Made by a program: the position numbers and the translations under genes
Origin: Prevotella sp.
GTDB lineage: Bacteria; Bacteroidota; Bacteroidia; Bacteroidales; Bacteroidaceae
Direction of reading: 5' to 3'
Assembly: GCA_017541365.1 (NCBI GenBank)
Contig: JAFXZF010000001.1
Span: 1-51,020 of the forward strand
Length of the DNA stretch: 51,020 nucleotides
Shown: in pieces, positions 16,756 through 33,936 of the stretch
How the letters are laid out: each line of letters begins with the position of its first letter
How positions within the stretch are numbered: the stretch's first letter is position 1
Notes under the pieces: model-generated
What the model was told of the DNA's origin: nothing
Databases searched by the model: none
The model's input: only the letters and a program-made list of their open reading frames with translations

Positions 16756-16759
16756 TAAT

Positions 16760-17554: not shown

Positions 17555-17603
17555 ACAATCTTAAAAATCGTTATAACAAGGCACCCGAACGTCAGAATTT
17601 CTG

Positions 17604-17611
17604 TAATTTTG
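17604..17611 (+). promoter_or_regulatory. Candidate internal promoter before ftsA
   Basis: TAATTTTG lies in the 106-base ftsQ-ftsA gap, the largest gap inside the dcw run, about 50 bases before the ftsA ATG. It would give extra ftsA-ftsZ-dgt transcription independent of MraZ. Confidence 0.45.
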
Positions 17612-17660
17612 TAATAATATTACAACCCACCATCTTTGAACTCTTGAACTAAAATACAAT

Positions 17661-19130: not shown

Positions 19131-19176
19131 TTAGTTACACCTCAAACCTCAAATCTCAAACCTCAATTCGTAACAG

Positions 19177-20535
19177 ATGTTAGACTTCGAAACCAATAGC
19201 AACAACAACAATACTATACTGGACGTCTTTCCAGCAGCACAGGAAAATAGTATCATCAAGGTCATCGGCGTAGGCGGTGGCGGTGGCAACGCTGTCAACC
19301 ACATGTATCGCGAGGGCATACACGACGTGTCGTTTGTGCTCTGCAATACCGATGCCCAGGCACTCAATGACTCACCCATACCTGTTCACCTGCAGCTCGG
19401 CAGCGAGGGACTGGGTGCCGGCAACCGTCCTGAGAAGGCGCGCGAAGCTGCCGAGGAGAGCATCGAGGATGTACGCCGTATGCTCAATGACGGCACCAAG
19501 ATGACATTCATCACCGCTGGCATGGGTGGTGGCACAGGTACTGGTGCTGCACCTATCATAGCTCGTGAGTCAAAGGCCATGGGCATACTTACCGTGGGTA
19601 TCGTCACCATACCATTCAAGTTTGAGGGTATGAAGAAAATCAATCAGGCACTCGATGGAGTGGAGGAGATGGCAAAGAATGTCGATGCACTCCTCGTCAT
19701 CAACAACGAGCGCCTGCGCCAGATATACTCCGACCTCTCTGTCAACGAGGCTTTTGCCAAAGCCGACGACACACTGTCAGTGGCAGCAAAGTCTATCGCT
19801 GAGATTATCACCGTACACGGAAAGATAAATCTCGACTTCAACGATGTCAAGACGGTGCTCAAAGATGGTGGCGTAGCCATCATGTCAACAGGTTACGGCG
19901 AGGGCGACGGACGTGTGAAGCAGGCTATCGCCGATGCTCTCAACTCCCCACTGCTCAATGACAATGATGTCTTCAACTCACAGAAGATACTCCTCTCTGT
20001 CACTCATGCCGATGATGCCAACCACAAGGGACTCATGATGGATGAGATGAACGAGATCAACGACTTCATGGAGAAGTTCAACAACTTCGAACTCAAGTGG
20101 GGTATAGCCAACGACCCATCACTTGGCGACAAGGTCAAGGTCACCATCCTCGCTACGGGCTTCGGACTCGCCGATGTCGATGACGAACTCAAGAAACGTC
20201 AGCAGAAGCGTACCGCAGAGGATATGGCACGCCTCGCAGAGAAAGAGGAGAAGGAGCGCATGGACCGTGAGCGCATGGGACGCTACTACGGTGCCGACGG
20301 CACCAACCACCCAGCTAAGCGCCGTGCCAACTGTTACCTCTTCAAGGCAGAGGACCTCGACAACGAAGACCTTATCCTCGCTGTGGAAAACAATACCACC
20401 TACGGACGTACCCGTCAGCAACTCGAGCACCTCAACCACCTCTCTGTAACCTACAAGAAACCCGAAGAACCAACTGCTGCGACTGATACCACCTCTTCCA
20501 GCGACCCTGTAGAGGGAGTCATCAGCTTCGCGTAG
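19177..20535 (+). CDS. ftsZ: Cell division tubulin homologue FtsZ
   Basis: 452 residues. VIGVGGGGGNAVNHM starts the GTPase domain, MGGGTGTGAAPI is the tubulin signature, and KINLDFNDVKTVLKDGG holds the catalytic T7 loop. It forms the Z-ring. The body ends near residue 330, followed by a basic linker (KKRQQKRTAEDMARLAEKEE). The very C-terminus (SSSDPVEGVISFA) does not show the DIPAFLRR-type peptide of proteobacterial FtsZ; LAVENNTTYGRTR about 50 residues from the end is the nearest look-alike. The 46-base gap before it contains repeated CCTCAAACCTCAAATCTC words. Confidence 0.97.
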   Translation: MLDFETNSNNNNTILDVFPAAQENSIIKVIGVGGGGGNAVNHMYREGIHDVSFVLCNTDAQALNDSPIPVHLQLGSEGLGAGNRPEKAREAAEESIEDVRRMLNDGTKMTFITAGMGGGTGTGAAPIIARESKAMGILTVGIVTIPFKFEGMKKINQALDGVEEMAKNVDALLVINNERLRQIYSDLSVNEAFAKADDTLSVAAKSIAEIITVHGKINLDFNDVKTVLKDGGVAIMSTGYGEGDGRVKQAIADALNSPLLNDNDVFNSQKILLSVTHADDANHKGLMMDEMNEINDFMEKFNNFELKWGIANDPSLGDKVKVTILATGFGLADVDDELKKRQQKRTAEDMARLAEKEEKERMDRERMGRYYGADGTNHPAKRRANCYLFKAEDLDNEDLILAVENNTTYGRTRQQLEHLNHLSVTYKKPEEPTAATDTTSSSDPVEGVISFA

Positions 20536-20549
20536 CATGATTTAATACA

Positions 20550-21890
20550 GTGGATTGGCAACACCTTATAAGCAACAAACGACTGGGGCAGGAACTGCAC
20601 CACGCAGAGCGTCATGATGAGCGTTCAGAGTTTAAGCGTGATTACGACCGCTTGATATTCTCAGCTCCCTTCCGTCGTTTGCAGAACAAGACGCAGGTAT
20701 TTCCCCTCCCAGGCTCCATCTTCGTTCACAATCGTCTCACGCACTCTCTCGAGGTAGCGAGTGTCGGTATGTCATTAGGCAGCGACGTGGCACGCGATGT
20801 CATACGCCGTGACCCCACACTTGCTGGTTCGCTCGTCGAGGAACTCGGTACCATCGTCTCCAGCGCCTGTCTGGCACACGACCTTGGCAACCCACCCTTC
20901 GGTCACTCCGGCGAGAAGGCGATACAGACATTCTTCTCAGAGGGAGCAGGCTCTGTACTCCGTGACAAGCTCCCCGACGATGTGTGGAGCGACCTCATAC
21001 ACTTTGAGGGCAATGCCAATGCCTTCCGCATACTCACACACCGTTTCTCGGGCAGGCGTGAAGGAGGCTTTGCTATGACATACAGCACCCTCGCCTCCAT
21101 CGTCAAGTACCCATACCCCTCCACGGCTATACCTTACGTAGGCAAGGAGAAGTTTGGTTTCTTCGCCTCCGAAGCCCCCACCTATAAGAAGATAGCATCA
21201 GAGCTGGGCATTCACAAATTGACAAATTCCTCAGGTGAGGCTTACTCCCGTCATCCCTTGGTATATCTCGTAGAAGCAGCAGATGATATATGCTATGAGG
21301 TAATGGATATCGAAGATGCCCACAAACTCAAGCTGCTCAGTTTTGAGGAGACACGCGGTCTGCTCCTCGCCTTCTTCGACGATGACGTGCAGCGTGCCAT
21401 CCTGCAGCGCATAGAGACAGAGCATATCACCGACGAAAACGAACAAGTGGTATATATGCGTGCCTGCGTCATCGGCAAACTCGAAAATGAGTGTGTCGAT
21501 GCCTTCCTGCACAATGAGGCAGCCATCATGGCAGGCACCTTCAAGGGGTCGCTGATAAAACATATCGGAGAACGTCAGCGCCGAGCATACGAACAATGTA
21601 CCAAGGTAGCCCTCAGCAAGATATACCACTCCAAACCCGTTCTCGACATCGAGCTTGGCGGTTATCATATCATGGGCACCATCCTTGAGCGCATGGTCGA
21701 TGCTATCATCAGTCCCGACCGTTTCTACTCACAGCAGCTCCTGCGCCGTGTCAGCAGTCAGTATGAGATAGAAGCTCCCGATATGCCCACACGCGTCATG
21801 GCAGTCATCGATTTCATCTCAGGCATGACCGATGTCTTCGCCCTCGACTTCTACCAGAAGATCAATGGCACCTCGCTGCCGATAATATAA
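20550..21890 (+). CDS. dgt: Deoxyguanosinetriphosphate triphosphohydrolase-like protein (HD domain)
   Basis: 446 residues starting at a GTG 14 bases after ftsZ. Family motifs are RDYDRLIFSAPFRRLQNKTQ, VHNRLTHSLEVASVG (first metal His) and CLAHDLGNPPFGHSGE (the HD pair). VEAADDICYEVMDIEDA carries the later metal Asp. These enzymes cleave dGTP to deoxyguanosine and triphosphate and limit dNTP pools. Close spacing puts it in the dcw transcript. Confidence 0.93.
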   Translation: MDWQHLISNKRLGQELHHAERHDERSEFKRDYDRLIFSAPFRRLQNKTQVFPLPGSIFVHNRLTHSLEVASVGMSLGSDVARDVIRRDPTLAGSLVEELGTIVSSACLAHDLGNPPFGHSGEKAIQTFFSEGAGSVLRDKLPDDVWSDLIHFEGNANAFRILTHRFSGRREGGFAMTYSTLASIVKYPYPSTAIPYVGKEKFGFFASEAPTYKKIASELGIHKLTNSSGEAYSRHPLVYLVEAADDICYEVMDIEDAHKLKLLSFEETRGLLLAFFDDDVQRAILQRIETEHITDENEQVVYMRACVIGKLENECVDAFLHNEAAIMAGTFKGSLIKHIGERQRRAYEQCTKVALSKIYHSKPVLDIELGGYHIMGTILERMVDAIISPDRFYSQQLLRRVSSQYEIEAPDMPTRVMAVIDFISGMTDVFALDFYQKINGTSLPII

Positions 21891-21902
21891 TTCCCCCTCC
21901 CT

Positions 21903-22793
21903 ATGTTTTCTTTCCGCAAGCAAGATCGCAATGCCGCCATACTGTTTCTCAGCATAATAGTATTGGTGGTATTATTATTTCCCCTGCTCAAGAAAGAAGG
22001 TGATAACCTTAACGATAACTATCCTTTCTCTACCCAGAGAGGAATTAAGGGTGAGTCTTCCAATCTCCCCTCTCTAAACAGAGAAGGGGCGGGGGTGAGT
22101 CTCTTTCCCTTCGACCCCAACACCGCCGACAGCATACAGCTGTTGCGCCTTGGACTGAAACCCTGGCAGGTGCGCAATATATATAAGTACCGCGCGAAGG
22201 GCGGCAGATACCGCACTAAGGAAGACTTCGCCATGCTCTACGGACTCACCCTGGAGCACTATCGTCGCCTCGAACCATATATCAAGATAGCTCCCGAGGT
22301 CATGGCACGCGACGTGATAGTTAGAAGGAATAACGAGAACGTTAACCATAGCCATAATGCCAACGCTAATGTCCCGATCACTCCCCCCAATAAAAAGCTC
22401 TCTCCTGGCGAGACTCTCGACATCAATACCGCCGACACTACGTCACTCAAGCGCATACCAGGCATCGGTTCCTATTTTGCCCGTCGCATAGTAGAGCTGC
22501 GCCAGCGTCGTCAGGCATTCACCTCGCCCGACGAACTCCTCGCTATACGCAATTTCCCAGAGTCATCACTCGTCTATATGACCTGTTCGCAAAACTTCCC
22601 CAAGGTGCATGTCAACAGTTCTACCTTGCAACAGCTCAAGGAACATCCCCTCATCAACCACACCCAGGCAACCGACATCCTACGATATCGCCGCCTGAAT
22701 GGAGCCATACACTCCATCAATGACATGGCACTCCTCCCATCGTTCACCAAGGAGAAACTTTCGCGTATCGCCCCCTTCCTCATCTTCGACTAA
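21903..22793 (+). CDS. Membrane-anchored helix-hairpin-helix (ComEA-like) protein
   Basis: 296 residues. One N-terminal membrane span lies at residues ~11-30. There are several helix-hairpin-helix units: FDPNTADSIQLLRLGL near 73, LDINTADTTSLKRIPGIG near 170 and VHVNSSTLQQLKEHPLI near 235. ComEA-type domains bind DNA without sequence preference; a role in DNA uptake or handling at the envelope is inference. Residues ~42-66 (STQRGIKGESSNLPSLNREG...) are encoded by a duplicated palindromic repeat and look like an in-frame insertion. It starts 12 bases after dgt. Confidence 0.85.
   Translation: MFSFRKQDRNAAILFLSIIVLVVLLFPLLKKEGDNLNDNYPFSTQRGIKGESSNLPSLNREGAGVSLFPFDPNTADSIQLLRLGLKPWQVRNIYKYRAKGGRYRTKEDFAMLYGLTLEHYRRLEPYIKIAPEVMARDVIVRRNNENVNHSHNANANVPITPPNKKLSPGETLDINTADTTSLKRIPGIGSYFARRIVELRQRRQAFTSPDELLAIRNFPESSLVYMTCSQNFPKVHVNSSTLQQLKEHPLINHTQATDILRYRRLNGAIHSINDMALLPSFTKEKLSRIAPFLIFD
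22025..22102 (+). repeat. Two copies of a REP-like palindromic repeat inside the ComEA-like gene
   Basis: Copy 1 (22025-22058) reads TTTCTCTACCCAGAGAGG and ends AAGGGTGAGTCT. Copy 2 (22067-22102) reads CCCCTCTCTAAACAGAGAAG and ends GGGGGTGAGTCT. Both have a CTCT...AGAG hairpin followed by GGGTGAGTCT. Such CCCTCTCT-loop-AGAGGGG-GGGTGAG units are frequent intergenic repeats in Bacteroidota. Here both copies are read in frame, as RGIKGES and REGAGVSL. Confidence 0.7.
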
Positions 22794-22796
22794 TGT

Positions 22797-22827
22797 AGCT
22801 ATGCTTCATCTACCTTCTGGCATAGCT
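22797..22827 (+). terminator. Hairpin after the dcw/dgt operon (weak terminator candidate)
   Basis: AGCTATGC (22797-22804) pairs with GCATAGCT (22820-22827) across a 15-base loop, right after the stop of the ComEA-like gene. No T-run follows, so termination here is uncertain; a stronger hairpin lies at 22927. Confidence 0.35.
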
Positions 22828-22837
22828 TCAGAATTAT

Positions 22838-22895
22838 AAACCATATGCTTTAAGCCCCTAAACCATATGCTTTAGCATTGCAAACCCTATGCTTT
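22838..22895. repeat. Three 22-bp periodic repeats (AAACCATATGCTTT)
   Basis: AAACCATATGCTTT starts at 22838 and 22860, and AAACCCTATGCTTT at 22882, exactly 22 bases apart. The unit is nearly palindromic (AAA...CATATG...TTT). A different repeat with the same layout and period is at 41274-41355. Confidence 0.8.
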
Positions 22896-22926
22896 TCCAA
22901 TGCAATCTATAATCTATAATCTGCAG

Positions 22927-22999
22927 TCTTAACCTCCCTATCGGGAACCTGCATGAATGCAGGGCTGAAGGCCCATATAGGAAGGTTAGGGAGTTTTTT
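22927..22999 (+). terminator. Terminator with long imperfect stem and six T
   Basis: TCTTAACCTCCCTAT (22927-22941) can pair with ATAGGAAGGTTAGGGA (22977-22992), allowing a few mismatches and G-T pairs. Six T follow at 22994-22999. The ~35-base loop carries a smaller GCAT hairpin. It probably ends the dcw-dgt transcript. Confidence 0.6.
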
Positions 23000-23050
23000 G
23001 CGCAAAAACTTTTTTTCTGCCCTTTTTTTGTTGGTTTCAAAAATTATTGT

Positions 23051-23058
23051 TACTTTTG
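23051..23058 (+). promoter_or_regulatory. Candidate promoter for the non-coding RNA region
   Basis: TACTTTTG fits the -7 box and is followed by about 340 bases without a convincing reading frame but with strong secondary structure. Two small hairpins (AAAGGT...ACCTTT around GGTGC-TTC-GCACC at 23074-23107, and GGCTTG-AGCG-CAAGCC near 23114-23129) come before the long hairpin at 23182. Confidence 0.5.
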
Positions 23059-23181
23059 TACTCGAACGCCAGAAAAGGTGCTTGGAGCGGTGCTTCGCAC
23101 CACCTTTCACATAGGGCTTGAGCGCAAGCCGCTGGTGTGATTTTATTGGTAAAACTAATTCGCGCGTAGTACTACGTTTGG

Positions 23182-23301
23182 AATGTCCCTGAACCTCGGA
23201 AATTCATAAGACATTCATACAACAAATAAGTATCAGCGCCTGCGCATAGCGTGGGCTGAGCTTATCTGTATGAATGGGTCATCCGAGGACCTTGGGACAT
23301 T
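23182..23301 (+). ncRNA. 6S-like RNA candidate: long hairpin with central bubble
   Basis: The arms pair as AATGTCCC/GGGACATT (23182-23189 with 23294-23301), CCTCGG/CCGAGG (23194-23199 with 23283-23288), CATTCATACA/TGTATGAATG (23212-23221 with 23267-23276), ATAAG/CTTAT and TCAGC/GCTGA. A short apical CGC-ATA-GCG hairpin closes it. Between the second and third stems is an open bubble of 12 bases on the 5' side and 6 on the 3' side. A rod-like RNA with a large internal bubble mimicking an open promoter is the hallmark of 6S RNA, which binds and inhibits RNA polymerase. The full transcript probably extends further on both sides. No reading frame occupies it. The 6S assignment is inference from structure only. 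Confidence 0.55.
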
Positions 23302-23406
23302 GATAAGAGCAGTTTCACGCTTTTATTATGTCTCAGGGTTCTTTGTTATTGAGCCCATCACCAATCAAACAGTTAAGTACTGTCGCTCATAAACTTATAT
23401 GCGTAG

Positions 23407-24441
23407 ATGGATTTTGTAATCAGAGAACTTAAATCTGTCAACAATCCACGTTCCATTCATGGGATATACCCATATCGTGGAAAGATTTCAGCGTTGGATG
23501 CAGAGCAGATTTTATCTCAAATGCCCAAGGGCAGTACTGTCCTTGACCCTTTTTGTGGCTCTGGAACAATTGTATATGAAGGTATGAAGCATGGACTTCA
23601 TACTATAGGTATTGATGCCAATCCGATTGCTGTTACTTTGTCAAATGGGAAGATACACATCCCGTTATCATTTCAAGAGGTTGAATATGAGGTAAACAAC
23701 GTAATACAGAGGGCAAAAGCGCAAACCCATGTGCCAATTGCACCAGAATATCCAGCAAGCCTTTTTCATAAAGAATCTCTCGATGAAATTATGAGGATGT
23801 CTGTTTTCTATGATGAAATGTCCGATTATGTCAAAGCATGCTTTCTCGGCGCAATAGCCTTAACAGCAAGAGGATGTAATGATTACAAATGGACATCAAG
23901 TACGGTTGGTAAGAATATAGAGCCGAAAAGGTATATCCCTTTTTATGAAAAACTTCAATTGAAGATAAAAAAGCATTATCTGCCAATAGCAAATGATAGT
24001 ACGATTTATTATGAAGACAGTAGGAATCTTGACAATGTTATCAAACCAAATTCGATAGATTTTATTTTCTCAAGTCCACCATATTTTGACTGTCTTGACT
24101 ATACGGCCTATTATGCTAGAATTATTTATGACATATTAGGCTTCGAGAGAATTCAAATCAGATCGAGACTCATACAAAGTTTTGAGAACTATAAAGAGGA
24201 CATGAAAACTGTTCTCGACAAGCTTTACAATGTTCTTAAACCTGGTGGCCAAGTTATCTTCGTAGTAGGTGACAAGAAGATACATGGTAGAGTTATAAAT
24301 GGTGCTGAATATTTTCAATCCATAAGCCCATTTAAAGACTACACCATCGTGGAACGGTCTTACTCTGGCACAAGTTCAAAGGTATTTGATGCAATAAACA
24401 AAACAGACAGAAAAGAACAAATAGTTATATGGACAAAATAG
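23407..24441 (+). CDS. SAM-dependent DNA methyltransferase (SPPY type), first methylase of a restriction-modification cassette
   Basis: 344 residues. The SAM loop is VLDPFCGSGTIVYEG (residues ~45-59) and the catalytic motif is FSSPPYFDCLDY (~221-232), with a ~150-residue variable region between them that probably recognises DNA. SPPY is most often found in N4-cytosine methylases but also in some N6-adenine ones. The order SAM loop, recognition region, catalytic motif resembles the alpha arrangement. It overlaps the next methylase by 13 bases. Base composition is clearly more AT-rich than the dcw genes, and AAA, ATA and TTA codons are frequent, pointing to acquisition by transfer. Confidence 0.88.
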   Translation: MDFVIRELKSVNNPRSIHGIYPYRGKISALDAEQILSQMPKGSTVLDPFCGSGTIVYEGMKHGLHTIGIDANPIAVTLSNGKIHIPLSFQEVEYEVNNVIQRAKAQTHVPIAPEYPASLFHKESLDEIMRMSVFYDEMSDYVKACFLGAIALTARGCNDYKWTSSTVGKNIEPKRYIPFYEKLQLKIKKHYLPIANDSTIYYEDSRNLDNVIKPNSIDFIFSSPPYFDCLDYTAYYARIIYDILGFERIQIRSRLIQSFENYKEDMKTVLDKLYNVLKPGGQVIFVVGDKKIHGRVINGAEYFQSISPFKDYTIVERSYSGTSSKVFDAINKTDRKEQIVIWTK

Positions 24442-25271
24442 AAAAATTGGTATTGGGTGATGCAACCATCTATAATCATGATTCGAGTGATATGAGTGCT
24501 ATTCCTAACGAAAGTGTTCATTTGATAATAACGAGTCCCCCCTATTGGACTCTTAAGGATTATGATGTCGAAGGACAAATTGGCAAGGGAAGTAGTTCGT
24601 ATGACTACTATTTGAGCGAACTTAACAAAGTATGGAAGGAATGTGTCCGCGTTTTAGCTCCAGACGGAAAGATTTGTATAAATATTATGCCATTTCTGTT
24701 GACAGGAAAAGCTGCTCGTTTTGACCGTCGGGAAACACGCTTGGTATTGGGCGATATTGAATCATTTATGAACTCAACAGGCTGCATGTACCAATTCGGG
24801 TTGTATATATGGGATAAAAGAAAGATAGCAAGATTCAGTTCTTTTGGTAGTTATCCTTATCCTCCTAATATTTTCTCCACTTACCCTTATGAATGGATTA
24901 CGGTATTCTCTAAAAAAGGTAAGCGTAAACCTGTAACTAAAGAAATCAAAGAGAAGTCAAAACTCACATCGGAAGAGTGGCAAAAATGGGCAATCAATTC
25001 TATTTGGGAAATGCAGCCAGCAAAGGCAAAGACAGAAGGACATCCCGCTCCTTTTCCTAAGGAACTTCCCATGCGACTTATCAAACTGTATAGTTTCTGG
25101 GGCGATACTGTATTAGACCCATTTGCTGGTACTGGTACAACTCTTTTAGCAGCTCAAGAACTGGGACGCAAATCAATCGGGTTTGAGTTGAATCCTGACT
25201 ACGTAAAACTGATAAAAAACAAACTTACACCGACTATATCACAACAATGCCTATTTACCGGGGAAATATAA
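24429..25271 (+). CDS. Beta-class DNA methyltransferase (SPPY type), second methylase
   Basis: 280 residues. The catalytic motif TSPPYWTLKDY lies at residues 35-45 and the SAM loop VLDPFAGTGTTLLAA at ~228-242, the motif order of beta-class enzymes. HPAPFPKELPMRLIKLY just before the SAM loop is the usual beta-class motif X. The order is opposite to that of the first methylase, so the two are not a simple duplication. Two methylases in one cassette usually means an asymmetric recognition sequence with one enzyme per strand. It overlaps both neighbours (13 and 25 bases). Confidence 0.92.
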   Translation: MDKIEKLVLGDATIYNHDSSDMSAIPNESVHLIITSPPYWTLKDYDVEGQIGKGSSSYDYYLSELNKVWKECVRVLAPDGKICINIMPFLLTGKAARFDRRETRLVLGDIESFMNSTGCMYQFGLYIWDKRKIARFSSFGSYPYPPNIFSTYPYEWITVFSKKGKRKPVTKEIKEKSKLTSEEWQKWAINSIWEMQPAKAKTEGHPAPFPKELPMRLIKLYSFWGDTVLDPFAGTGTTLLAAQELGRKSIGFELNPDYVKLIKNKLTPTISQQCLFTGEI

Positions 25272-25690
25272 ATAGTACGCTTGCTTCTATTGTCGCCAAT
25301 TCTTCTGATGGGGAGGAGAAACAATTCTTCTATCATGTACCATGTAAGAAAAAATTGGAAACCTTAGTGTACTTTGCAAGTAATATCGAATCTAAAGATC
25401 GTTCTGTATTCATACGAGTAAATTATGAATGGGAGTACGGACTAAGGGCACGTAGAATAGACTTGGTGTCAAAAGAATACGATACAATTACTCTCTATAA
25501 GAAGTCTAATAAGTTTGCCACAGACAGTAATGCGATGGACTTATATCGATTGAAGGAAAGTGTCTCAGGTTCTTTTCCTAATCTAAAGGTCAAGTGTATG
25601 CTTCTGTATTCAGATACTGTCGAAGAACAAAGTATCCAGCAGACATTAGATTCATTAAAACTTGATGTGGGATTTATGACAATATTGTAA
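25247..25690 (+). CDS. Unrecognised 147-residue protein of the restriction-modification cassette
   Basis: It overlaps the second methylase by 25 bases and ends two bases before the next gene, so it belongs to the same translationally linked unit. I do not recognise the family. The stretch EYGLRARRIDLVSKEYDTIT followed by LYKKSNKF and MDLYRLK has the rhythm of a PD-(D/E)XK core (Asp, spacer, then a strand with Lys), but the expected E/D-x-K is not present, so it may be a degenerate nuclease fold or something unrelated. Two Cys residues (33 and 117) are isolated. Confidence 0.75.
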   Translation: MPIYRGNINSTLASIVANSSDGEEKQFFYHVPCKKKLETLVYFASNIESKDRSVFIRVNYEWEYGLRARRIDLVSKEYDTITLYKKSNKFATDSNAMDLYRLKESVSGSFPNLKVKCMLLYSDTVEEQSIQQTLDSLKLDVGFMTIL

Positions 25691-25692
25691 TT

Positions 25693-26868
25693 ATGGCATT
25701 TCTTATCAATCGCACAGCAGCAGCTAGAATAGAGTGTTTGCATGCACTTGCTCAGTTAATCGTTGAGAAATTCGGCACCTACGGAACTTCCTTTAATCTT
25801 AAGGATATAAAGTTCGATCGTAATGCCACCAATATACACAAGTTTTGCACATTACTTAAAGAGGATGAACTTGTTGGCAAATATTGCCGATTCAAGGAAA
25901 ATCCTCTTGATGATGCAGGTTGCTCTATAACAAATGGTGTTTTGAGTGACACCACAAAATCAAAAGAGGTGAGCAATACGATTAATGCAATGCATGCGCT
26001 AGGTTTTGTTGAGCGAGTTGGAAGAAAGGTAAGAATAACCCCTTTTGGCGTTAGGTTTGCAAAAACAGAATGTGGAACGGCTGAAATGCAAGCTATCATC
26101 AAAAAGGCAGTTCTAAATTATGGACCAGTTGTAGGGGTTATGTATAGTTTGTCCAAATATAATCCAGGAGAAACCTTTGATGCTGGCGAGATAACTGTGG
26201 GTTATCCTTCTCCAACAGAGTTCGTAGAATATAATGGTAATATGGTTGAATTATCCGCAGGCTCTACGCGTGATTCAAATACTAGAACAAAGTCCTGTAT
26301 TTTGGCATGGCTCACGCAGGGAGGCTACATTAAACCTGTAAATTTCAAACCTACAGCATCGCCTTACGCACACATCGCCTATCGTGATTATATCAATAGC
26401 GAGCATCGAGTGGGACAGGAGTATGAGATGATAGAAATCCCCAATACAGATATAACAGATAGACCTCTTAACTATGACAACCTTACCAAAATGAATTTCT
26501 GCTTAAGGGAGAATGGTCAGGAGATGGTGCGTGAGGCTACAATGTATTACGAATCCAAAATCAAGAATCGTCGCTTTGCTATTCTTTTCTTACTTAATCT
26601 TGCATTTCAAAACAATACGGCTGTAGCATTAAGTGACATTATAGATGTTCTAAAAGAAGACAAAGACAAGTTCGTGATTTCAGAGGAAGACCTTGAGGAT
26701 ACTATATCAACAGAAATAGATATTGCATTCATGGCAGGAATACCTTATGTAGGAAGAATTATGAATGGGAAGTTCTATCTGCAACCAACAAAAGGATTGA
26801 ATATAAAAGAATTAGAGGTGGGTGCTCCACAGGATGTTATAGACTGTCTAAACCAATATAGCTATTAA
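25693..26868 (+). CDS. Unrecognised 391-residue winged-helix-like protein, possible specificity subunit
   Basis: Residues ~90-125 (SNTINAMHALGFVERVGRKV followed by RITPFGVRFAK) read as a winged-helix DNA-binding unit, and a second similar unit is plausible around 205-235 (SCILAWLTQGGYIKPV). There is no SAM loop or obvious nuclease motif. Lying between the methylases and the nuclease gene, and joined to the latter by a TAATG stop-start, it could supply DNA recognition to the nuclease; this is inference. AT-rich codon use matches the rest of the cassette. Confidence 0.8.
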   Translation: MAFLINRTAAARIECLHALAQLIVEKFGTYGTSFNLKDIKFDRNATNIHKFCTLLKEDELVGKYCRFKENPLDDAGCSITNGVLSDTTKSKEVSNTINAMHALGFVERVGRKVRITPFGVRFAKTECGTAEMQAIIKKAVLNYGPVVGVMYSLSKYNPGETFDAGEITVGYPSPTEFVEYNGNMVELSAGSTRDSNTRTKSCILAWLTQGGYIKPVNFKPTASPYAHIAYRDYINSEHRVGQEYEMIEIPNTDITDRPLNYDNLTKMNFCLRENGQEMVREATMYYESKIKNRRFAILFLLNLAFQNNTAVALSDIIDVLKEDKDKFVISEEDLEDTISTEIDIAFMAGIPYVGRIMNGKFYLQPTKGLNIKELEVGAPQDVIDCLNQYSY

Positions 26869-27902
26869 TGGGTAAGTTTTGTTTATATGCAGATAATAGG
26901 CTTGATGCTCCTTGTGCATTCCTGCAAATGTACAAGTATTCGTATCTTGCAAATTTTATAGAGGATGAAAAGCATAGTAAGGGAAAATCGTCACATAGTG
27001 TTCCCTTAGTGGTTAGTTGTCTAAAAAATGGTGAAGATAGAGTAAGTAAGTTCTCTGTAAAAGAAGAATGCTGTATAAACTGTATGTTTTGCGTGTTTGG
27101 ATGCGTAGGCAATCGTATTCTATTGACAAACAAATTTCATCCCAATAGGTTCTGTTATGATATCTCTGCTAAGGAGCTATCCGAATTGGAAATGGCCTCG
27201 TCAAGTCTATTTAAAGGAACATTCATAAAATTGCCTAAGGTGCCTGTTGGCCTTCTTTCAGTTAAATATAAGTGTTTTGAGGCCTTTACTGCTGTTGACG
27301 AAACGAAGAATATTGCCGTGTGGACAGCAAATGCCATGAAATTTCTAAGCATGTCATTTGAACCTCGCTTGGCATTAGAAGTTGGATTGAGAATTGACCA
27401 AAGAGATAGAGGTGGAAGATTAGATGTTAGTCTTCTGAATATCCGAGACAATTATCTCTTTGTTGCTGAAACAAAAGTTGACTTCAATCATATGATGGCT
27501 GAAGGAAGATATGAGTCTCAAATGGTGGCTTACGAAACAGAACTAGAACAAGTCGAAGATAGAATAAAACGCGCAAAGTTTTTAGTTATCGGAGGTCGCG
27601 AATGTGATTTACTCCCCTCATCAGTACAAGGCTCCACCTCTGGTCCACGAGCAGACTTGTTTTATAGCGTCTTACGTAAACATAAACTTTTCTTTTTTTC
27701 TGCAAATGCTTTGCTCGCTCTAGGATTGCAAAAATTGTACGTCTCAAACAGCGACTACTCCTTGGAGTCTTTATTCCCTATAATCAATAATAATGAGTAT
27801 GTCGGACTTTTATCTTCAGGAGTTGTTACTAGAGAAGGACAAATCATTGCATTAGATAAGATTCTTGATACTGTCAAAAAAACTAGAATACAAGGAAAGT
27901 AG
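26868..27902 (+). CDS. PD-(D/E)XK nuclease with ferredoxin-like Cys cluster; likely restriction endonuclease
   Basis: 344 residues, starting in a TAATG overlap. The N-terminal third contains C69-IN-C72-MF-C75-VFG-C79, the exact CxxCxxCxxxC spacing of a [4Fe-4S] ferredoxin site, with further Cys at 5, 16, 51, 68 and 96. The central part carries a nuclease core: E171, D186 (GGRLDVSLL), E201-T-K203 (FVAETKVDF) and a Q218-MVA-Y222 that matches the QxxxY helix of RecB-like nucleases. The C-terminal third is alpha/beta with no clear motif. Cas4 and AddB also join an Fe-S cluster to this fold but split the cysteines around the nuclease; here the four lie together upstream. Restriction is inferred from the linked methylases. 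Cofactor binding is untested. Confidence 0.82.
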   Translation: MGKFCLYADNRLDAPCAFLQMYKYSYLANFIEDEKHSKGKSSHSVPLVVSCLKNGEDRVSKFSVKEECCINCMFCVFGCVGNRILLTNKFHPNRFCYDISAKELSELEMASSSLFKGTFIKLPKVPVGLLSVKYKCFEAFTAVDETKNIAVWTANAMKFLSMSFEPRLALEVGLRIDQRDRGGRLDVSLLNIRDNYLFVAETKVDFNHMMAEGRYESQMVAYETELEQVEDRIKRAKFLVIGGRECDLLPSSVQGSTSGPRADLFYSVLRKHKLFFFSANALLALGLQKLYVSNSDYSLESLFPIINNNEYVGLLSSGVVTREGQIIALDKILDTVKKTRIQGK

Positions 27903-27934
27903 AAATAACATCAAAGAGTGGAAAAATAAACATC

Positions 27935-27974
27935 ATCGCCTCACTCATCATTGCATGAGTGGGGCGATTTCGTT
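27935..27974 (+). terminator. Terminator ending the restriction-modification cassette
   Basis: ATCGCCTCACTCAT (27935-27948) pairs with ATGAGTGGGGCGAT (27955-27968), one G-T pair, 6-base loop, followed by a weak TTCGTT. The stem shares CGCCyCACTCAT with the terminator at 29518. Confidence 0.7.
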
Positions 27975-28040
27975 AATAGAAGGGTTGTTGCACCATAGCA
28001 TGTTTAATGCCGAAAATTTGGAGAAAAGAAAAAAAGTTCA

Positions 28041-28048
28041 TAAATTTG
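28041..28048 (+). promoter_or_regulatory. Promoter for the DUF4468 gene
   Basis: TAAATTTG followed by CAGG fits the -7 box. The ATG at 28059 is only 10 bases beyond it, so the leader would be about 5 bases or less; a second ATG at 28071 would give a leader of about 15. Confidence 0.6.
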
Positions 28049-28058
28049 CAGGTGTTAA

Positions 28059-28823
28059 ATGAATGAATTGATGAAGACATTATTGATGACTATGATGCTC
28101 GCAATATGCGGGGCTTCGCTGACAGTGGAGGCACAGGTGATGAAGGCTGCCGACTTGGAGAAATATGCTAAGAGCCGTTATGGCGATAAGTGGGTGGATG
28201 CCGCTATGACACTGGCAGGCGATATGAAGTTTGACAAGAACGAGTCGCTTACTTATCAGGAGATAATACAGGCTCCAGGAAAGACTAAGCAGCAACTGTA
28301 TGTGATGCTGAACTACTGGGTGACGGCTACGTTTAAGGATAAGCAGGCGATAACGCTGAACGACAAGGAGGACGGATGCATCATCATATCGTCAACGCTG
28401 GATGCTATCGCCGACCATACGGGTACGCTCTATCGCTATATAGTGAACATAACTCCCGTGATAAGGATTGACATCAAGGACGGCAAGGTGCGTGTGACCT
28501 ATACGGTGCAGAACTATGACGTGGTGAAGGTGGAAAGCGGTGGATGGCTGGGAGGACTGACGAATACTGACAGCAAAGATCAAAACCGCAACAAGGATGT
28601 GTATGCTGACGGCAAACGTATGAATGCCGACAAGACGGACCGCCGACTCTATGACGAGCAATGGGAGATAGTGCGACACTATCCCTTCGTGGAGAAGGAC
28701 CTGCAGAAACGCACCTGCTCAAAGGCTCTCGTGATGACTCACGCTTACTCTAATGCCATAATGGACAAAATAGAGGAAGCGGTGAAGAACGGCCTCATAG
28801 GCAATGAGGACGATAACTGGTAA
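28059..28823 (+). CDS. Secreted DUF4468 domain protein
   Basis: 254 residues. A signal peptide is present (MKTLLMTMMLAICGASLTVEA, cleaved after VEA-Q if the second ATG is used). The middle (residues ~75-150) is the beta-alpha-beta region typical of DUF4468, a periplasmic Bacteroidota domain of unknown function, with DGCIIISST and TYTVQNYDV strands. The start could be 28059 or 28071. It is followed closely by a LolA-like gene with its own promoter. Confidence 0.75.
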   Translation: MNELMKTLLMTMMLAICGASLTVEAQVMKAADLEKYAKSRYGDKWVDAAMTLAGDMKFDKNESLTYQEIIQAPGKTKQQLYVMLNYWVTATFKDKQAITLNDKEDGCIIISSTLDAIADHTGTLYRYIVNITPVIRIDIKDGKVRVTYTVQNYDVVKVESGGWLGGLTNTDSKDQNRNKDVYADGKRMNADKTDRRLYDEQWEIVRHYPFVEKDLQKRTCSKALVMTHAYSNAIMDKIEEAVKNGLIGNEDDNW

Positions 28824-28861
28824 GTTTTCCCTAAAAATTTGGAGGAGAGAGAGATTTTTTG

Positions 28862-28869
28862 TACCTTTG
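28862..28869 (+). promoter_or_regulatory. Promoter for the LolA-like gene
   Basis: TACCTTTG is a good -7 box, with the ATG at 28879 only nine bases after it, again implying a nearly leaderless mRNA. Confidence 0.65.
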
Positions 28870-28878
28870 CGGGGAAAT

Positions 28879-29511
28879 ATGAGAAATGTCTTTTTATATA
28901 TGGTGTTGGCGCTGATGATGTGCGCCAACGTTACTTCGGAGGCGAAGAAGAAACCGTCGGCCGATAGTCCGAATGCTCAGCAGGCGAAGCACCTGTTTAT
29001 GCAGGCGTGGCAAAGGACCTTCAGCAGTCAGGGGGCTACGCTGCACTATAAGGTGAATGTGGCTAATCTGTATAAAACGGAGGGCACGATATGGTATAAG
29101 GGTAAGAAGAGCAGGTATGTGTCGAAGAACAGCAAGGGATGGAATGATGGCGTGACGGCATATATCACGAAGGAGAAAAAGAAGGTGGTGGAGATACACC
29201 ATGGTACGGAGAAGGGAAAGTATGAGGAGAAATTTACCTTCGAGCCTGATAACTACACGTATAGCGTGACTCGCGAAGATGAGGGTCTGCTGGTGACGCT
29301 AAAGGCGAAGAAGGGTGTTGACGGGGTGAAGGAGGCTAAGGTGCTGTTGGACCTGGCGACTCATAATCCGAAGCGTATCAGGGTGAAGGTTGCCTTCTTG
29401 TGGGCAACGATAAATATCTCTAACTTCAAGTCGGGTGGCATAGATGACAGTATGTTTGTCTTCCCACGGGCACAGTACAGTGGATATGAATTTGTAGATA
29501 AGAGGGAGTAA
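28879..29511 (+). CDS. LolA-like secreted protein
   Basis: 210 residues from ATG 28879; a longer upstream frame would cross the promoter. The signal peptide is MRNVFLYMVLALMMCANVTS. The mature part is beta-rich and ends SNFKSGGIDDSMFVFPRAQY ... VDKR, the closing pattern of LolA-fold proteins in Bacteroidota (F.FP...Y....VD.R). LolA carries lipoproteins across the periplasm; stand-alone LolA-like proteins of this size have unknown cargo. It ends just before a strong terminator. Confidence 0.7.
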   Translation: MRNVFLYMVLALMMCANVTSEAKKKPSADSPNAQQAKHLFMQAWQRTFSSQGATLHYKVNVANLYKTEGTIWYKGKKSRYVSKNSKGWNDGVTAYITKEKKKVVEIHHGTEKGKYEEKFTFEPDNYTYSVTREDEGLLVTLKAKKGVDGVKEAKVLLDLATHNPKRIRVKVAFLWATINISNFKSGGIDDSMFVFPRAQYSGYEFVDKRE

Positions 29512-29517
29512 CAACGG

Positions 29518-29567
29518 TTCGCCCCACTCATCAATGGATGGGTGGGGCGAATTTGTTTTTTTTTTAT
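29518..29567 (+). terminator. Terminator with 15-bp stem and nine-T run
   Basis: TTCGCCCCACTCATC (29518-29532) pairs with GATGGGTGGGGCGAA (29537-29551), one G-T pair, 4-base loop, then TTTG and a long T-run to 29565. It overlaps the stop of the convergent M20 gene. Confidence 0.9.
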
Positions 29568-30640
29568 GCGAGCAACTTGAGGTAGGTGTCTATGGCATGC
29601 TGAATCTCGCTGATGCAGATGTACTCATCGGCGGAGTGGGAACGGCTACTCTCGCCTGGACCGAGCTTGAAGCTGGGGAAACGCATGAGGGCTTGGTCGG
29701 AGAGGGTGGGGGAGCCGAAGGGCTGCATGCCGAGTGCGGAGAACTTCTTCTGGTAGTCACGAAGTGACGTATCGTCTTCGCTGCTGAACAGCGAAGAACT
29801 GTGCAGATGGAAGGAGCGTGCCTTGAGGTCGCTCTTTAGTTTGCTCTGCAGGAACTCGAATATCTCCTCGTTGGTGTATAGCTCGTTGGAGCGAACGTCG
29901 ATGGTGAAGCGACACTCATCGGGCACGACATTGTGCTGGGTGCCGCTATTGAGGATGGTGCACTGCATCTTGGTCTCGCCGAGGAGGGGTGAGACGCGTT
30001 GGAACTTATAGTCGCGTATAAACAGCAGGTCGTCGAGGGCTTGGTAGATAGCATTGATACCCTCGCCACGAGCGGCATGACCACTCTTGCCGTGGGCTAC
30101 GCCGTCGATGACCATGAGGCCGCGCTCGGCGATGGCGGGTTGCATGCCGGTGGGTTCGCCGACGATAGCTACGTCAACCTTAGGAAGTGAAGGGAGCACG
30201 GCACGAATGCCGCCAGCTCCGCTGACCTCTTCCTCGCATGAGGCGAGGTAGATATAGTTCGCACTGTGAACTGTGAACTGTGAACTGTGAACTGCCCTAA
30301 ACACCTGCAAGAGGCTCACCAGTCCACCACCGCAGTCATTGGAACCGAGACCGTAGAGGCGGTCACCCTCTATGGTGGGGGTGAAGGGGTCGCGAGTCCA
30401 TGTGGAGACGGGCTTGACGGTGTCGATATGGGCATTGAGGAGTATGGTGGGACGGCTGTCGTCCCATGATGATGACTTTATGAGCAGGTTATTGCCTATG
30501 CGCTCCGGCTCGTAGCCGTAGCTGTGCATGGCTTGCTCCATTATGTCGGCTGCTGCACTCTCGTCGCGGCTTATGGATGGGGTGGCGATGAGTTGTTTGA
30601 GCAGTGCTACTGCATCATTGACGTATTGGTCGATGGTCAT
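29564..30640 (-). CDS. M20 family deacylase, acetylornithine deacetylase-like
   Basis: 358 residues from the ATG at 30640; a longer frame exists but adds a non-family leader across the promoter. Metal ligands are visible in LLNAHIDTVKP (His-x-Asp), GSNDCGGGLVSLL (bridging Asp), ASCEEEVSGAG (catalytic Glu pair) and AIVGEPTG. SGHAARGEGINAI is the lid-domain signature. Such enzymes hydrolyse N-acyl amino acids; in Bacteroidota the relative at this level may act on N-acetyl- or N-succinyl-ornithine, so the substrate is not fixed. About ten residues (AVHSSQFTVHSANY) before the catalytic Glu motif are encoded by a 7-bp tandem repeat and look inserted. Confidence 0.88.
   Translation of the reverse strand: MTIDQYVNDAVALLKQLIATPSISRDESAAADIMEQAMHSYGYEPERIGNNLLIKSSSWDDSRPTILLNAHIDTVKPVSTWTRDPFTPTIEGDRLYGLGSNDCGGGLVSLLQVFRAVHSSQFTVHSANYIYLASCEEEVSGAGGIRAVLPSLPKVDVAIVGEPTGMQPAIAERGLMVIDGVAHGKSGHAARGEGINAIYQALDDLLFIRDYKFQRVSPLLGETKMQCTILNSGTQHNVVPDECRFTIDVRSNELYTNEEIFEFLQSKLKSDLKARSFHLHSSSLFSSEDDTSLRDYQKKFSALGMQPFGSPTLSDQALMRFPSFKLGPGESSRSHSADEYICISEIQHAIDTYLKLLA
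30263..30294 (-). repeat. 7-bp tandem repeat (ACTGTGA, over four copies) inside the M20 deacylase gene
   Basis: The plus strand reads ACTGTGA four times in a row plus ACTG. On the coding strand it gives SSQFTVHS-type peptide. Seven is not a multiple of three, so gain or loss of one unit would shift the frame. Confidence 0.85.
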
Positions 30641-30668
30641 GGTGAGTTTTTTGTTATCGTTAGTTTTG

Positions 30669-30716
30669 CAAAGGTAGTAAATAAATTCATAATTCATAAT
30701 TCATAATTCACAATTA
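30669..30716 (-). promoter_or_regulatory. Promoter for the M20 deacylase and adjacent AT filler repeat
   Basis: On the minus strand TACCTTTG is read at 30676-30669, about 30 bases before the start. Just upstream, 30685-30716 holds four imperfect copies of AATTCATA(C), a short-word repeat of the kind seen in several spacers of this window. Confidence 0.65.
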
Positions 30717-30725
30717 TATTAAAAG

Positions 30726-30757
30726 TTTGCTCATTTTATACTTTTTTTGTAAATTTG
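30726..30757 (+). promoter_or_regulatory. Promoter for the acyl-CoA ligase gene
   Basis: TTTG (30726-30729) and TAAATTTG (30750-30757) are 20 bases apart, matching the -33 and -7 elements of Bacteroidota promoters. The ATG at 30793 follows. Confidence 0.7.
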
Positions 30758-30792
30758 CATTCAAAATTGATATGTGATAAAAACGTATTGCC

Positions 30793-32601
30793 ATGCAAAC
30801 AGTGTGTCATTTAGCGTTGCTGCCTCACGAGCAGGCAAAGAAATATGGTGACAGGACAGTCTTTGAGTATAAGGACTTTGGGGGCACCGTATGGAGAAAG
30901 GTATCGTGGAACGAGTTTTCGGAGAGCGTAATGAAGGTGTCGAATGCCCTGCTGAATCTGGGTGTGAAAGCGCAGGAGAATATCGGAGTGTTCTCGCAGA
31001 ACGCCCTGCAGTACTTCTACACCGACTTTGGTGCCTTCGGAGTGAGAGCCGTGACGATACCGTTCTATGCCACGAGTTCGGAGCAGCAGTTGCAGTATGT
31101 CGTCAACGATGCGCAGATACGTATAATGTTTGTCGGCGAACAGGAGCAGTATGACAAGGCTCGTAGGGTGCAGGCGCTGTGCTCCACACTGGAGAGGATA
31201 GTGATATATGATGCATCGGTGACGCTGGCGGAGCATGACGTGACATCGATATACTTCAACGATTTCATGAAACAGGGTGAGGGACTGCCACGTCAGACAG
31301 AGGTAGAGCGGCTGTGGAACGAACTTAATGATGACGATATCGCCAACATACTATATACCTCGGGCACTACGGGAGAGTCAAAGGGAGTGGTGCTTACCTG
31401 CGGACAGTATGCTGCTGCCTTTAAGGCCAACAACGAGTGTGTGCCTGTGGGAGAGGATGACAGAGTGATAACATTTCTGCCCATAGCGCATATCTTTGAA
31501 AGGGGATGGGACTTCCTGGCACTGACGGAAGGCAGCATGCTGATAATCAATACTGACCCTCGTGAGATACAGAAGTCGATGAAGGAGACACACCCAACGT
31601 GTATGTCGGCGGTGCCACGCTTCTGGGAGAAGGTGTATGCTGGCATACAGGACAAGATAGACTCGTCATCGCCTATGCACCAGAAACTGTTCAGGGAGGC
31701 ACTGGCGATAGGCAAGAAATATAACGTGGAGTGTAAGGCGCACGGCAAACGCCCGTCACTGCTCCTCGCCATGAAGTACAAGGCGATAGACAAGACGCTG
31801 CTGGCGCTGGTGAGAAAACAGTTTGGACTGGTGAAGCCCAACATATTTCCTACGGCGGGCGCCGTGGTGTCGCCTGAGGTGGAGACATTCGTGCACAGCC
31901 TGGGACTGAACATGATAGTGGGATACGGACTGACGGAGAGCCTCGCCACGGTATCGTGCGACCATAAGGACGAACCTTATACTATAGGCTCTGTGGGACG
32001 CCCCATCAACGGCATCGACGTGAAGATAGGGGAGAACGACGAGATACTGCTCAAGGGACCTACGATAACGCGTGGATACTACAAACGCGAGACGCTTAAC
32101 AAAGAGTCGTTTACGGAGGATGGATATTTCCGTACGGGGGATGCTGGATACATACGTGACGGCGAACTATTCCTGACGGAGCGCATAAAGGACCTATACA
32201 AGACATCCAACGGCAAGTACATAGCACCACAGGCGGTGGAGTCGAAACTGCTGGTGGATAAGTTTATAGAACAAATAGTGGTGATAGCTGAGGAACGTAA
32301 GTTTGTCTCTGCGCTGATAGTACCAGCATACCCTATGCTGGAGGAGTATGCTCGTGAATATAACATACCATTTGAGGGACGTGAGGATCTATGCCGCAAC
32401 GCAAAGATAATAAAGATGCTCGCGGAACGTATAGACACTCTGCAGCAGGGATTGGCAGGCTACGAACAGGTGAAACGCTTCACACTGCTTACCGCACCGT
32501 TTACCATGGAGAGTGGGGAACTGACCAACACACTGAAGACACGCCGCCCCGTAGTGATAAAAAACTACGCTGAAATCATTGAACAGATGTACAATGATTA
32601 A
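30793..32601 (+). CDS. Long-chain fatty acid-CoA ligase (AMP-forming)
   Basis: 602 residues. The adenylate-forming signature ILYTSGTTGESKGVVLT (near residue 190) binds ATP, GYGLTESLATVSC is the A5 motif, and YFRTGDAGYIRDGELFLTER the A7-A8 hinge. The C-terminal catalytic Lys region is SGELTNTLKTRRP. It activates fatty acids to acyl-CoA for lipid synthesis or breakdown. Length and motifs fit the FadD15/long-chain type. Confidence 0.92.
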   Translation: MQTVCHLALLPHEQAKKYGDRTVFEYKDFGGTVWRKVSWNEFSESVMKVSNALLNLGVKAQENIGVFSQNALQYFYTDFGAFGVRAVTIPFYATSSEQQLQYVVNDAQIRIMFVGEQEQYDKARRVQALCSTLERIVIYDASVTLAEHDVTSIYFNDFMKQGEGLPRQTEVERLWNELNDDDIANILYTSGTTGESKGVVLTCGQYAAAFKANNECVPVGEDDRVITFLPIAHIFERGWDFLALTEGSMLIINTDPREIQKSMKETHPTCMSAVPRFWEKVYAGIQDKIDSSSPMHQKLFREALAIGKKYNVECKAHGKRPSLLLAMKYKAIDKTLLALVRKQFGLVKPNIFPTAGAVVSPEVETFVHSLGLNMIVGYGLTESLATVSCDHKDEPYTIGSVGRPINGIDVKIGENDEILLKGPTITRGYYKRETLNKESFTEDGYFRTGDAGYIRDGELFLTERIKDLYKTSNGKYIAPQAVESKLLVDKFIEQIVVIAEERKFVSALIVPAYPMLEEYAREYNIPFEGREDLCRNAKIIKMLAERIDTLQQGLAGYEQVKRFTLLTAPFTMESGELTNTLKTRRPVVIKNYAEIIEQMYND

Positions 32602-32624
32602 TTAGGAATTTCTAATTAAAAAAG

Positions 32625-33743
32625 ATGATAACACAGGAACAACTGAAGGATGTGATGGACAGGGCGGATGCTCTGTATAAATATCTGGACATAGATAGAA
32701 AGAAGATAGAGTACGAGGAGGAAGACCTCCGTACGCAGGCTCCAGACTTCTGGGATGACCCAGAGAGGGCAAGGGCACAGATGAAGGTGGTGGGCGAACT
32801 GAAGAAGTGGCTCGACGGCTACAAAGAGGTGCGCACTGCTACGGATGAGGTGCAGCTGGCGATGGAGTTTTATAAGGATGAGATGGTCACCGAACAGGAG
32901 GTGGACGTGGCATACGAACGTGCCATAAAGGCTATAGAAGACCTTGAGCTGAAGAATATGCTGCGACAGGAGGAAGACCCCATGGACGCTGTGCTGAAGA
33001 TAAATTCTGGTGCTGGTGGCACTGAGGCACAGGACTGGGCACAGATGCTGATGCGTATGTACATACGCTGGGCTGAAAAGGGTGGCTACAAGGTGACCGT
33101 GGTGGATCTGCTCGAGGCTGACGATGCCGGCATAAAAACTGTCACCATGCAGATAGAGAACCAAGGCGAGGCAGACTATGCGTATGGTTACTTGAAGTCG
33201 GAAAGCGGCGTACACCGTTTGGTGCGGGTCAGCCCGTATAATGCCCAAGGTAAACGTATGACGAGTTTTGCATCGGTGTTTGTGACACCTCTCATCGATG
33301 ACACTATAGAAGTGGAGATAGACCCTGCAAGGATATCATGGGATACCTTCCGCTCATCAGGTGCCGGCGGACAGAACGTCAACAAGGTGGAGACGGGTGT
33401 CAGAGTGCGTTATATGTACCAAGACCCCGACACGGGCGAGGAGGAGGAGATACTCATCGCCAACACTGAATCGCGCAAACAACAGCAGAATCGTGAGAAT
33501 GCTCTACGACTGCTGAAGTCACAACTCTATGACCGTGCCATGAAGAAAAGACTGGAGGCACAGGCAGCGATAGAGGCGGGAAAGAAGAAGATAGAGTGGG
33601 GTAGTCAGATACGTTCGTACGTCTTTGACGACCGACGTGTGAAAGACCATCGCACGGGATATCAGACTGCAGATGTCGATGGGGTGATGGATGGTAAGAT
33701 AGACGGCTTTATCAAAGCATACCTGATGGAAGAACAAAACTAA
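32625..33743 (+). CDS. prfB: Peptide chain release factor 2
   Basis: 372 residues. The GGQ loop is SGAGGQNVNKVETGVR (near residue 250), and VHRLVRVSPYNAQGKR holds the stop-reading tripeptide, here SPY where the E. coli factor has SPF. GTEAQDWAQMLMRMY is a family signature. It releases peptides at UGA and UAA. The frame is open from ATG 32625 through the place where many bacteria have an in-frame TGA and +1 shift: here TATCTGGAC replaces TATCTTTGAC, so the autoregulatory frameshift is absent. Confidence 0.96.
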   Translation: MITQEQLKDVMDRADALYKYLDIDRKKIEYEEEDLRTQAPDFWDDPERARAQMKVVGELKKWLDGYKEVRTATDEVQLAMEFYKDEMVTEQEVDVAYERAIKAIEDLELKNMLRQEEDPMDAVLKINSGAGGTEAQDWAQMLMRMYIRWAEKGGYKVTVVDLLEADDAGIKTVTMQIENQGEADYAYGYLKSESGVHRLVRVSPYNAQGKRMTSFASVFVTPLIDDTIEVEIDPARISWDTFRSSGAGGQNVNKVETGVRVRYMYQDPDTGEEEEILIANTESRKQQQNRENALRLLKSQLYDRAMKKRLEAQAAIEAGKKKIEWGSQIRSYVFDDRRVKDHRTGYQTADVDGVMDGKIDGFIKAYLMEEQN

Positions 33744-33774
33744 GAATAATAATAACTAAACAACGTAAAGAATC

Positions 33775-33930
33775 ATGAGCAACTTTAAACATGCAAAGCG
33801 TGATGCCAAGAAGGCTGCATACGCTGAAAAACAACAGAAGCATCAGAAAAACGTGATAAACTGGATATTCGGCGTACTGATAGCACTGGGCGTGCTGTAT
33901 GCTGTATATACTATTATATCAGTGGGATAG
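33775..33930 (+). CDS. Small single-span membrane protein (51 residues)
   Basis: It starts 31 bases after prfB. The first ~25 residues are strongly basic (SNFKHAKRDAKKAAYAEKQQ), then one membrane span (INWIFGVLIALGVLYAVYTI) to near the end. Small proteins of this plan follow prfB in related genomes as far as I recall; the function is unknown. Codon use matches its neighbours and the CYTH gene follows within six bases, supporting a real gene. Confidence 0.7.
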   Translation: MSNFKHAKRDAKKAAYAEKQQKHQKNVINWIFGVLIALGVLYAVYTIISVG

Positions 33931-33936
33931 TTAACA

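Follow-up and report, generated by a model that had tools for sequence, protein, structure and literature searches.

A Prevotella restriction-modification operon encoding a probable FokI-type endonuclease divided into recognition and cleavage proteins, with a ferredoxin-like cysteine domain on the nuclease

The restriction endonuclease FokI carries DNA recognition and cleavage in a single chain. Type IIT heterodimers (BspD6I/BtsI type) are characterised by a nuclease site in each of their two subunits. In the heterodimer R.BspD6I (BstNBI), as described in a Type II review, the recognition subunit also bears a nuclease site (PMC4081073). The 51,020-nucleotide stretch of Prevotella sp. contig JAFXZF010000001.1 analysed in this study, hereafter the window, holds an operon in which the two functions are assigned to separate genes, namely W391, a stand-alone FokI-type DNA-recognition protein of 391 amino acids (25693..26868, plus strand) that aligns to recognition halves only and carries no cleavage domain, and NUC, a nuclease of 344 amino acids (26868..27902, plus strand) that differs from FokI by an added N-terminal domain with eight invariant cysteines. 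BspD6I is not known to have a domain of this kind. The iron-sulfur (Fe-S) nucleases Cas4, AddB and Dna2 resemble NUC in combining a PD-(D/E)XK core and Cys ligands in one chain, but they place one Cys before the core and three after it, whereas all eight precede the core in NUC. With bacterial ferredoxins and Fer4 proteins NUC has the motif CxxCxxCxxxC in common, and the residues flanking it are weakly like those of PorD, NuoI and FdxA; it differs from them in having a single motif where they have two, four partner cysteines that lie scattered, uniformly weak scores, and a Pro after the fourth Cys in few of the NUC sequences displayed.

We consider it probable that the operon encodes a Type II restriction-modification (R-M) system, similar to Types IIS and IIA, in which a FokI-type endonuclease is divided into W391 for recognition and NUC for cleavage, the latter with its ferredoxin-like Cys domain at the N-terminus.

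NUC is one open reading frame (ORF) running from ATG to TAG, and its ATG shares one base with the stop codon of W391. Residues 1–135 (26868..27272, plus strand) constitute the Cys-rich domain with C5, C16, C51, C69, C72, C75, C79 and C96, the motif itself (CINCMFCVFGC) covering residues 69–79 (27072..27104, plus strand), and residues 136–344 (27273..27899, plus strand) constitute the PD-(D/E)XK cleavage domain with E171, D186, E201, K203, Q218 and Y222. Relatives were sought among 5.8 billion proteins, yielding 157 by sequence search and 198 by profile search, and the best 120 of each set provided 124 distinct identifiers besides the query; as candidates had to measure 0.55–1.75 times the query length, a fused W391-NUC protein could have escaped. 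The resulting alignment of 134 sequences comprised 125 such entries (query included) and nine translations from the genomic loci described below, with partial duplication possible between the two groups. All eight Cys columns were covered in 126 of these sequences and all eight residues were present in 125, the sole exception being P0044 with F at position 72. Column by column, the motif cysteines were kept in 133/133 (C69), 132/133 (C72), 134/134 (C75) and 134/134 (C79) sequences, and the four lying outside the motif in 126/126 (C5), 127/127 (C16), 133/133 (C51) and 134/134 (C96), while the other three of the 11 NUC cysteines were poorly kept (C68 in 40, C136 in 3 and C246 in 50 of 134). The six core residues were all retained in 133 of 134 sequences, the remaining one having a gap at position 171. 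Thus, the cysteines and the core are kept together, both being near-invariant within one alignment.

These data bear on an earlier note on this DNA, made from the sequence alone, which had described a ferredoxin-like cysteine cluster joined to a nuclease core in a layout unlike that of Cas4 or AddB. The positions and spacing that it gave for C69, C72, C75 and C79 were correct, such spacing arising in only 3 of 20,000 shuffles of NUC and hence above chance, as were its core residues E171, D186, E201-T-K203, Q218 and Y222. Its layout was likewise upheld, for no invariant Cys occurs beyond residue 96 and the core begins at about residue 145, so that all eight lie N-terminal to it. The four-Cys site that it envisaged, however, has to be widened to an eight-Cys domain, C5, C16, C51 and C96 having been overlooked. 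Homologues with the core but without the cysteines, which the note had named as evidence to the contrary, were looked for and none was seen among the 134 aligned sequences.

Structure comparison suggested that the NUC core is FokI/BspD6I-like rather than RecB/Cas4-like, the Cas4 structure 4r5q appearing only at rank 42 of the Foldseek search (E 0.18). Kinship with Cas4 or RecB was therefore not favoured by this comparison, in which absence from the list would not in itself be decisive. The Pfam model FokI_cleav_dom (PF09254) was reported for none of the 65 NUC members scanned, and in 296 genomes from the phylum of genome G003 it retrieved two ORFs of other kinds and did not recover the NUC of G003 itself. 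Where the earlier note spoke of a RecB-like PD-(D/E)XK core, the PD-(D/E)XK residues stand and the RecB likeness is not favoured; its assignment of NUC to restriction is supported by the two DNA methyltransferases encoded in the same operon.

W391 was calculated to have the FokI recognition fold, with three winged-helix subdomains as in FokI. It occupies a reading frame separate from that of NUC in the window, and the two are separate stretches in the nine loci too. For the window and seven loci, 28 pairs in all, the distances between NUC sequences and those between W391 sequences have a correlation of 0.992. Of 124 distinct lengths of contigs carrying NUC, 36 recur among 118 lengths for W391, in part perhaps by coincidence. 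W391 also has near-invariant cysteines of its own in an alignment of 129 sequences (C15 in 122/122, C52 in 123/124, C65 in 125/125, C77 in 125/125 and C202 in 125/129), and these make a metal site in this protein possible.

Upstream of W391, and on the same strand, the operon begins with two amino-methyltransferase genes. M1 (23407..24441, plus strand; 344 amino acids) has circularly permuted catalytic motifs and matched PF01555 in two pieces (1.3e-16) and the PADLOC model MTase_II (1.2e-21), and M2 (24429..25271, plus strand; 280 amino acids) matched PF01555 (1.3e-47) and the PDB entry 2zie (3.3e-48). A small gene for a 147-amino-acid protein, S147 (25247..25690, plus strand), follows. The order M1-M2-S147-W391-NUC is compact, with successive overlaps of 13 and 25 bases, a gap of 2 bases and an overlap of 1 base. 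Nine loci were obtained when two short peptide patterns were used to scan the species genomes, 84,980 in number, a procedure that returned 124 stretches, of which nine were confirmed, and that distant relatives can escape. Six of the loci are from Bacteroidales/Prevotella-type metagenome genomes (several from rumen according to their titles), one is from Odoribacter and two are from Flavobacterium. M2, W391 and NUC occur in the same order in all nine (M2 being partial in L003), and M1 is present in eight, the ninth, L003, ending inside M2 at a contig end.

In the scheme that we propose, W391 would bind an asymmetric site, and M1 and M2 would methylate the two strands of this site in the host. 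A FokI-type enzyme would call for two methyltransferase activities on its asymmetric site; the operon has two methyltransferase genes, whose target site and strands are predictions. The two enzymes are encoded apart and are each of the PF01555 type, unlike in the FokI system. On unmethylated DNA, W391 would recruit NUC, whose PD-(D/E)XK domain would cut beside the site, probably as a pair of two NUC copies in the manner of FokI. The Cys domain of NUC is the best candidate for docking onto W391, and would thereby replace the covalent linker of FokI. S147 would presumably have a role in the system as well.

Most likely, the N-terminal domain of NUC binds one or two [4Fe-4S] clusters in a mainly structural role, Fe-S being the likeliest ligand judging from sequence comparisons. 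The query itself (P0001) matched no Pfam or PADLOC model at E≤1; over the motif, its NCBIfam matches were of ferredoxin type (NuoI, PorD) and all below threshold. When 65 NUC members were scanned at the same Pfam threshold, Fer4_6 was found in 38, Fer4_2 in 32, Fer4_7 in 22 and Fer4 in 14 (best 3.2e-4), NCBIfam matches were mostly ferredoxin-type with some others among the 25 families listed of 66 (TtrB in 20 members, best 2e-5), and sequence searches of the PDB with NUC gave mainly ferredoxin-type matches over the motif at E 0.1–10. In a control with ten N-termini of 125 residues shuffled with the cysteines held fixed, Fer4-type models matched two (best 0.016), Fer4_6 matched none and one sequence matched a zinc-ribbon model at 0.12, indicating that the spacing explains part of the Fer4 signal and that neighbouring residues add some. 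In ferredoxins, the fourth Cys of the CxxCxxCxxxC motif serves the other cluster. Two [4Fe-4S] clusters would suit NUC because a ferredoxin-like motif is accompanied by four extra invariant cysteines; a single cluster together with a different site is an alternative. That zinc is bound instead, by a structural domain of treble-clef or zinc-ribbon-like kind as in several restriction enzymes, we regard as unlikely. The appeal of this reading lies in the low model confidence over the Cys region (residues 41–80 at a predicted local distance difference test score, pLDDT, of 60–66 in a prediction from 65 sequences) and in the structural zinc sites known in restriction enzymes, the main text of the Type II review containing zinc 33 times and iron, Fe-S, sulfur and ferredoxin not once (PMC4081073). 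The review passages on zinc nevertheless give the pattern CXXC...CXXC (PMC4081073). Furthermore, of the 25 Pfam families that the 65 members matched, 13 were of Fer4 type and none was a zinc family, and a match to a zinc-binding restriction family, which the earlier note had considered damaging, did not appear in the family and profile scans of NUC. CxxCxxCxxxC, for its part, is the spacing of ferredoxins.

Even if Fe-S is accepted, the cluster might act as a redox or oxygen sensor that switches cleavage, or its maturation might delay the nuclease so that methylation comes first. The eight invariant cysteines with two possible cluster sites speak for such a role, as does the need of an R-M system to establish its methyltransferase ahead of its nuclease, given that family scans recognised no controller gene among the five operon proteins (S147 having no assigned family). 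We nevertheless judge it improbable, since the Fe-S clusters in Cas4, AddB and Dna2 are regarded as having a chiefly structural role, the same scans recognised no redox partner among the five proteins, and the Flavobacterium homologues retain all eight cysteines. Flavobacterium is a mostly aerobic genus, and the conservation of every Cys there weakens the anaerobe-specific oxygen switch that was one of the two options in the earlier note; the other, a structural cluster, is the one preferred here. The maturation timer, in which Fe-S assembly would delay cutting until methylation is done, is put forward as a speculative idea. A more far-reaching version, which we hold as a tentative and rather doubtful one, is that NUC represents the first family of Fe-S restriction endonucleases, a split FokI whose two proteins, for recognition and for cleavage, are coupled through a two-cluster, eight-Cys ferredoxin-like domain, the nuclease being active only after cluster assembly so that the methyltransferases gain a head start in a new cell, and that the leader RNA described below adds a further control, at the RNA level, which other restriction systems have in common with this one. 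Finally, a triple winged-helix protein (SspB/DndG-like) next to a nuclease could also belong to a defence module of the phosphorothioate or bacteriophage exclusion (BREX) type instead of a Type II system; we take this to be very improbable.

Among the papers listed by searches of the open-access literature and judged by title and abstract, a scope outside which REBASE and subscription journals lie, none described a restriction enzyme with Fe-S, or a FokI split in nature into one protein for recognition only and one for cleavage only. Ferredoxin-type Cys regions have been described for a different defence enzyme, the 3'-phosphoadenosine 5'-phosphosulfate (PAPS) reductase of Type-4 BREX (PMC12839542). 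If the proposed system is real, the natural separation of FokI into recognition and cleavage proteins would bear on the origin of modular Type IIS enzymes and would offer a partner-dependent cleavage domain; the range of Fe-S nucleases would reach past the Cas4/AddB/Dna2 layout and take in restriction enzymes, and the timing or gating of restriction by a cluster would become testable.

S147 yielded tblastn matches in seven of the nine loci and no convincing family or profile match in Pfam, PADLOC and other profile searches. In the Flavobacterium loci, an ORF with 24% identity occupies its slot (149 amino acids in L008, and the same coordinates of L009). The protein thus keeps its operon position and evolves fast, with 24–29% identity in three far loci. 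By eye it was suspected of being a degenerate nuclease, but no profile linked it to NUC. In the metagenome-assembled locus L004 (5666–7998) the operon is damaged, M2 being interrupted by a single in-frame stop and W391 by a broken frame. Either gene decay or an error of assembly would account for this, and undamaged copies occur in other genomes.

The region from the leader to NUC (23183–27902) has a guanine-plus-cytosine content of 37.9%, as compared with 52.5% and 50.2% on its sides, which is consistent with recent gain. Apart from the leader, nothing in the window flanks (16001–23400 and 27951–34000) was matched to the loci by blastn at E 1e-10. The low guanine-plus-cytosine content and the unmatched flanks together fit an operon moving between chromosomal places. 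The Flavobacterium copy in L008 (2978–12365) lies among ORFs that resemble, by eye, RadC and a tyrosine integrase, suggesting that this copy is on a mobile element. No relatives of NUC were found in the viral contigs, plasmids or phages searched, and none of W391 in the viral contigs searched. Among 393 genomes from the order of genome G001, the NUC profile matched the seed genome only; among 296 from the order of G003, it matched the seed and one chance-like stretch (L013), which covers profile positions 94–169, outside the CxxCxxCxxxC motif, and belongs to an ORF judged by eye to be helicase-like. The W391 profile matched only the seed among 395 genomes from the phylum of G003.

A structured leader RNA (23183..23406, plus strand) ends directly at the M1 start codon. 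Folding of its first 218 bases (23183–23400) gave a z of −6.95, with none of 200 shuffles as good, and the leader is conserved in L001, L002, L004, L005 and L006. Among six leader sequences, three of them nearly identical, 13 of 73 pairs were changed on both sides, and a covariance model built from the six found 78 places in 46 of 173 genomes of the family of G001. For the covariation analysis, 57 places gave 64 model-fitted matches in 61 distinct rows, one of them antisense. In these, 90.6% of cells paired, versus 70.0% in shuffled and 36–43% in slid alignments, and two-sided change was seen in 69 of 73 pairs on the 61 rows; the pair-count result was the same for a selection of 45 sources that omitted near-duplicates and 15 of the 57 places, mostly with non-restriction-like genes. 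The leader RNA is probably pseudoknotted, the first hairpin loop pairing with the linker before the long hairpin (87.2% paired cells versus 64.4% shuffled and 33–62% slid, 47 rows). This pseudoknot, which was picked by looking at the alignment, is also supported by its covariation score; the numbers of pairs and of pair types give it no support, since shuffled alignments reach them too. Rfam had no match to the leader at E≤1 in the window or at gathering scores in six loci, the one Rfam match listed for the window being RsaJ at 27851–27968 (E 0.22), elsewhere than the leader and far below its threshold, and none of the papers listed by literature searches fitted. In wider samples, the model found places in 29 of 198 genomes of the order of G001 and in 5 of 119 of the order of G003, some of the weak matches perhaps being hairpins that arose by chance.

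The leader may be a regulator that restriction operons have in common in the family of G001. Downstream genes numbered 57 (L032–L088), from the 60 places at E≤1.1e-5 after excluding L001's own copy and two places truncated on their downstream side by the end of the contig; as the contigs of L004 and L006, which went into the model, recur here as L032 and L033, 55 are other places, and 18 weaker places (three antisense duplicates) stood outside the tally. Pfam counts for the 57 genes, which may overlap, were N6_N4_Mtase 14, SNF2 helicase 11, N6_Mtase 8, Eco57I 6, ResIII 6, D12 5, EcoRI methylase 3 and HSDR_N_2 3, and PADLOC named mostly methyltransferases and PLD/SNF2 helicases. Some genes were not restriction-like by eye, e.g. 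those at L045, L046, L048, L067, L069, L070, L073, L077, L081 and L087. The leader family thus precedes many unrelated restriction or defence genes, including methyltransferases, SNF2/PLD helicases and EcoRI-type and D12 methylases, and some others too.
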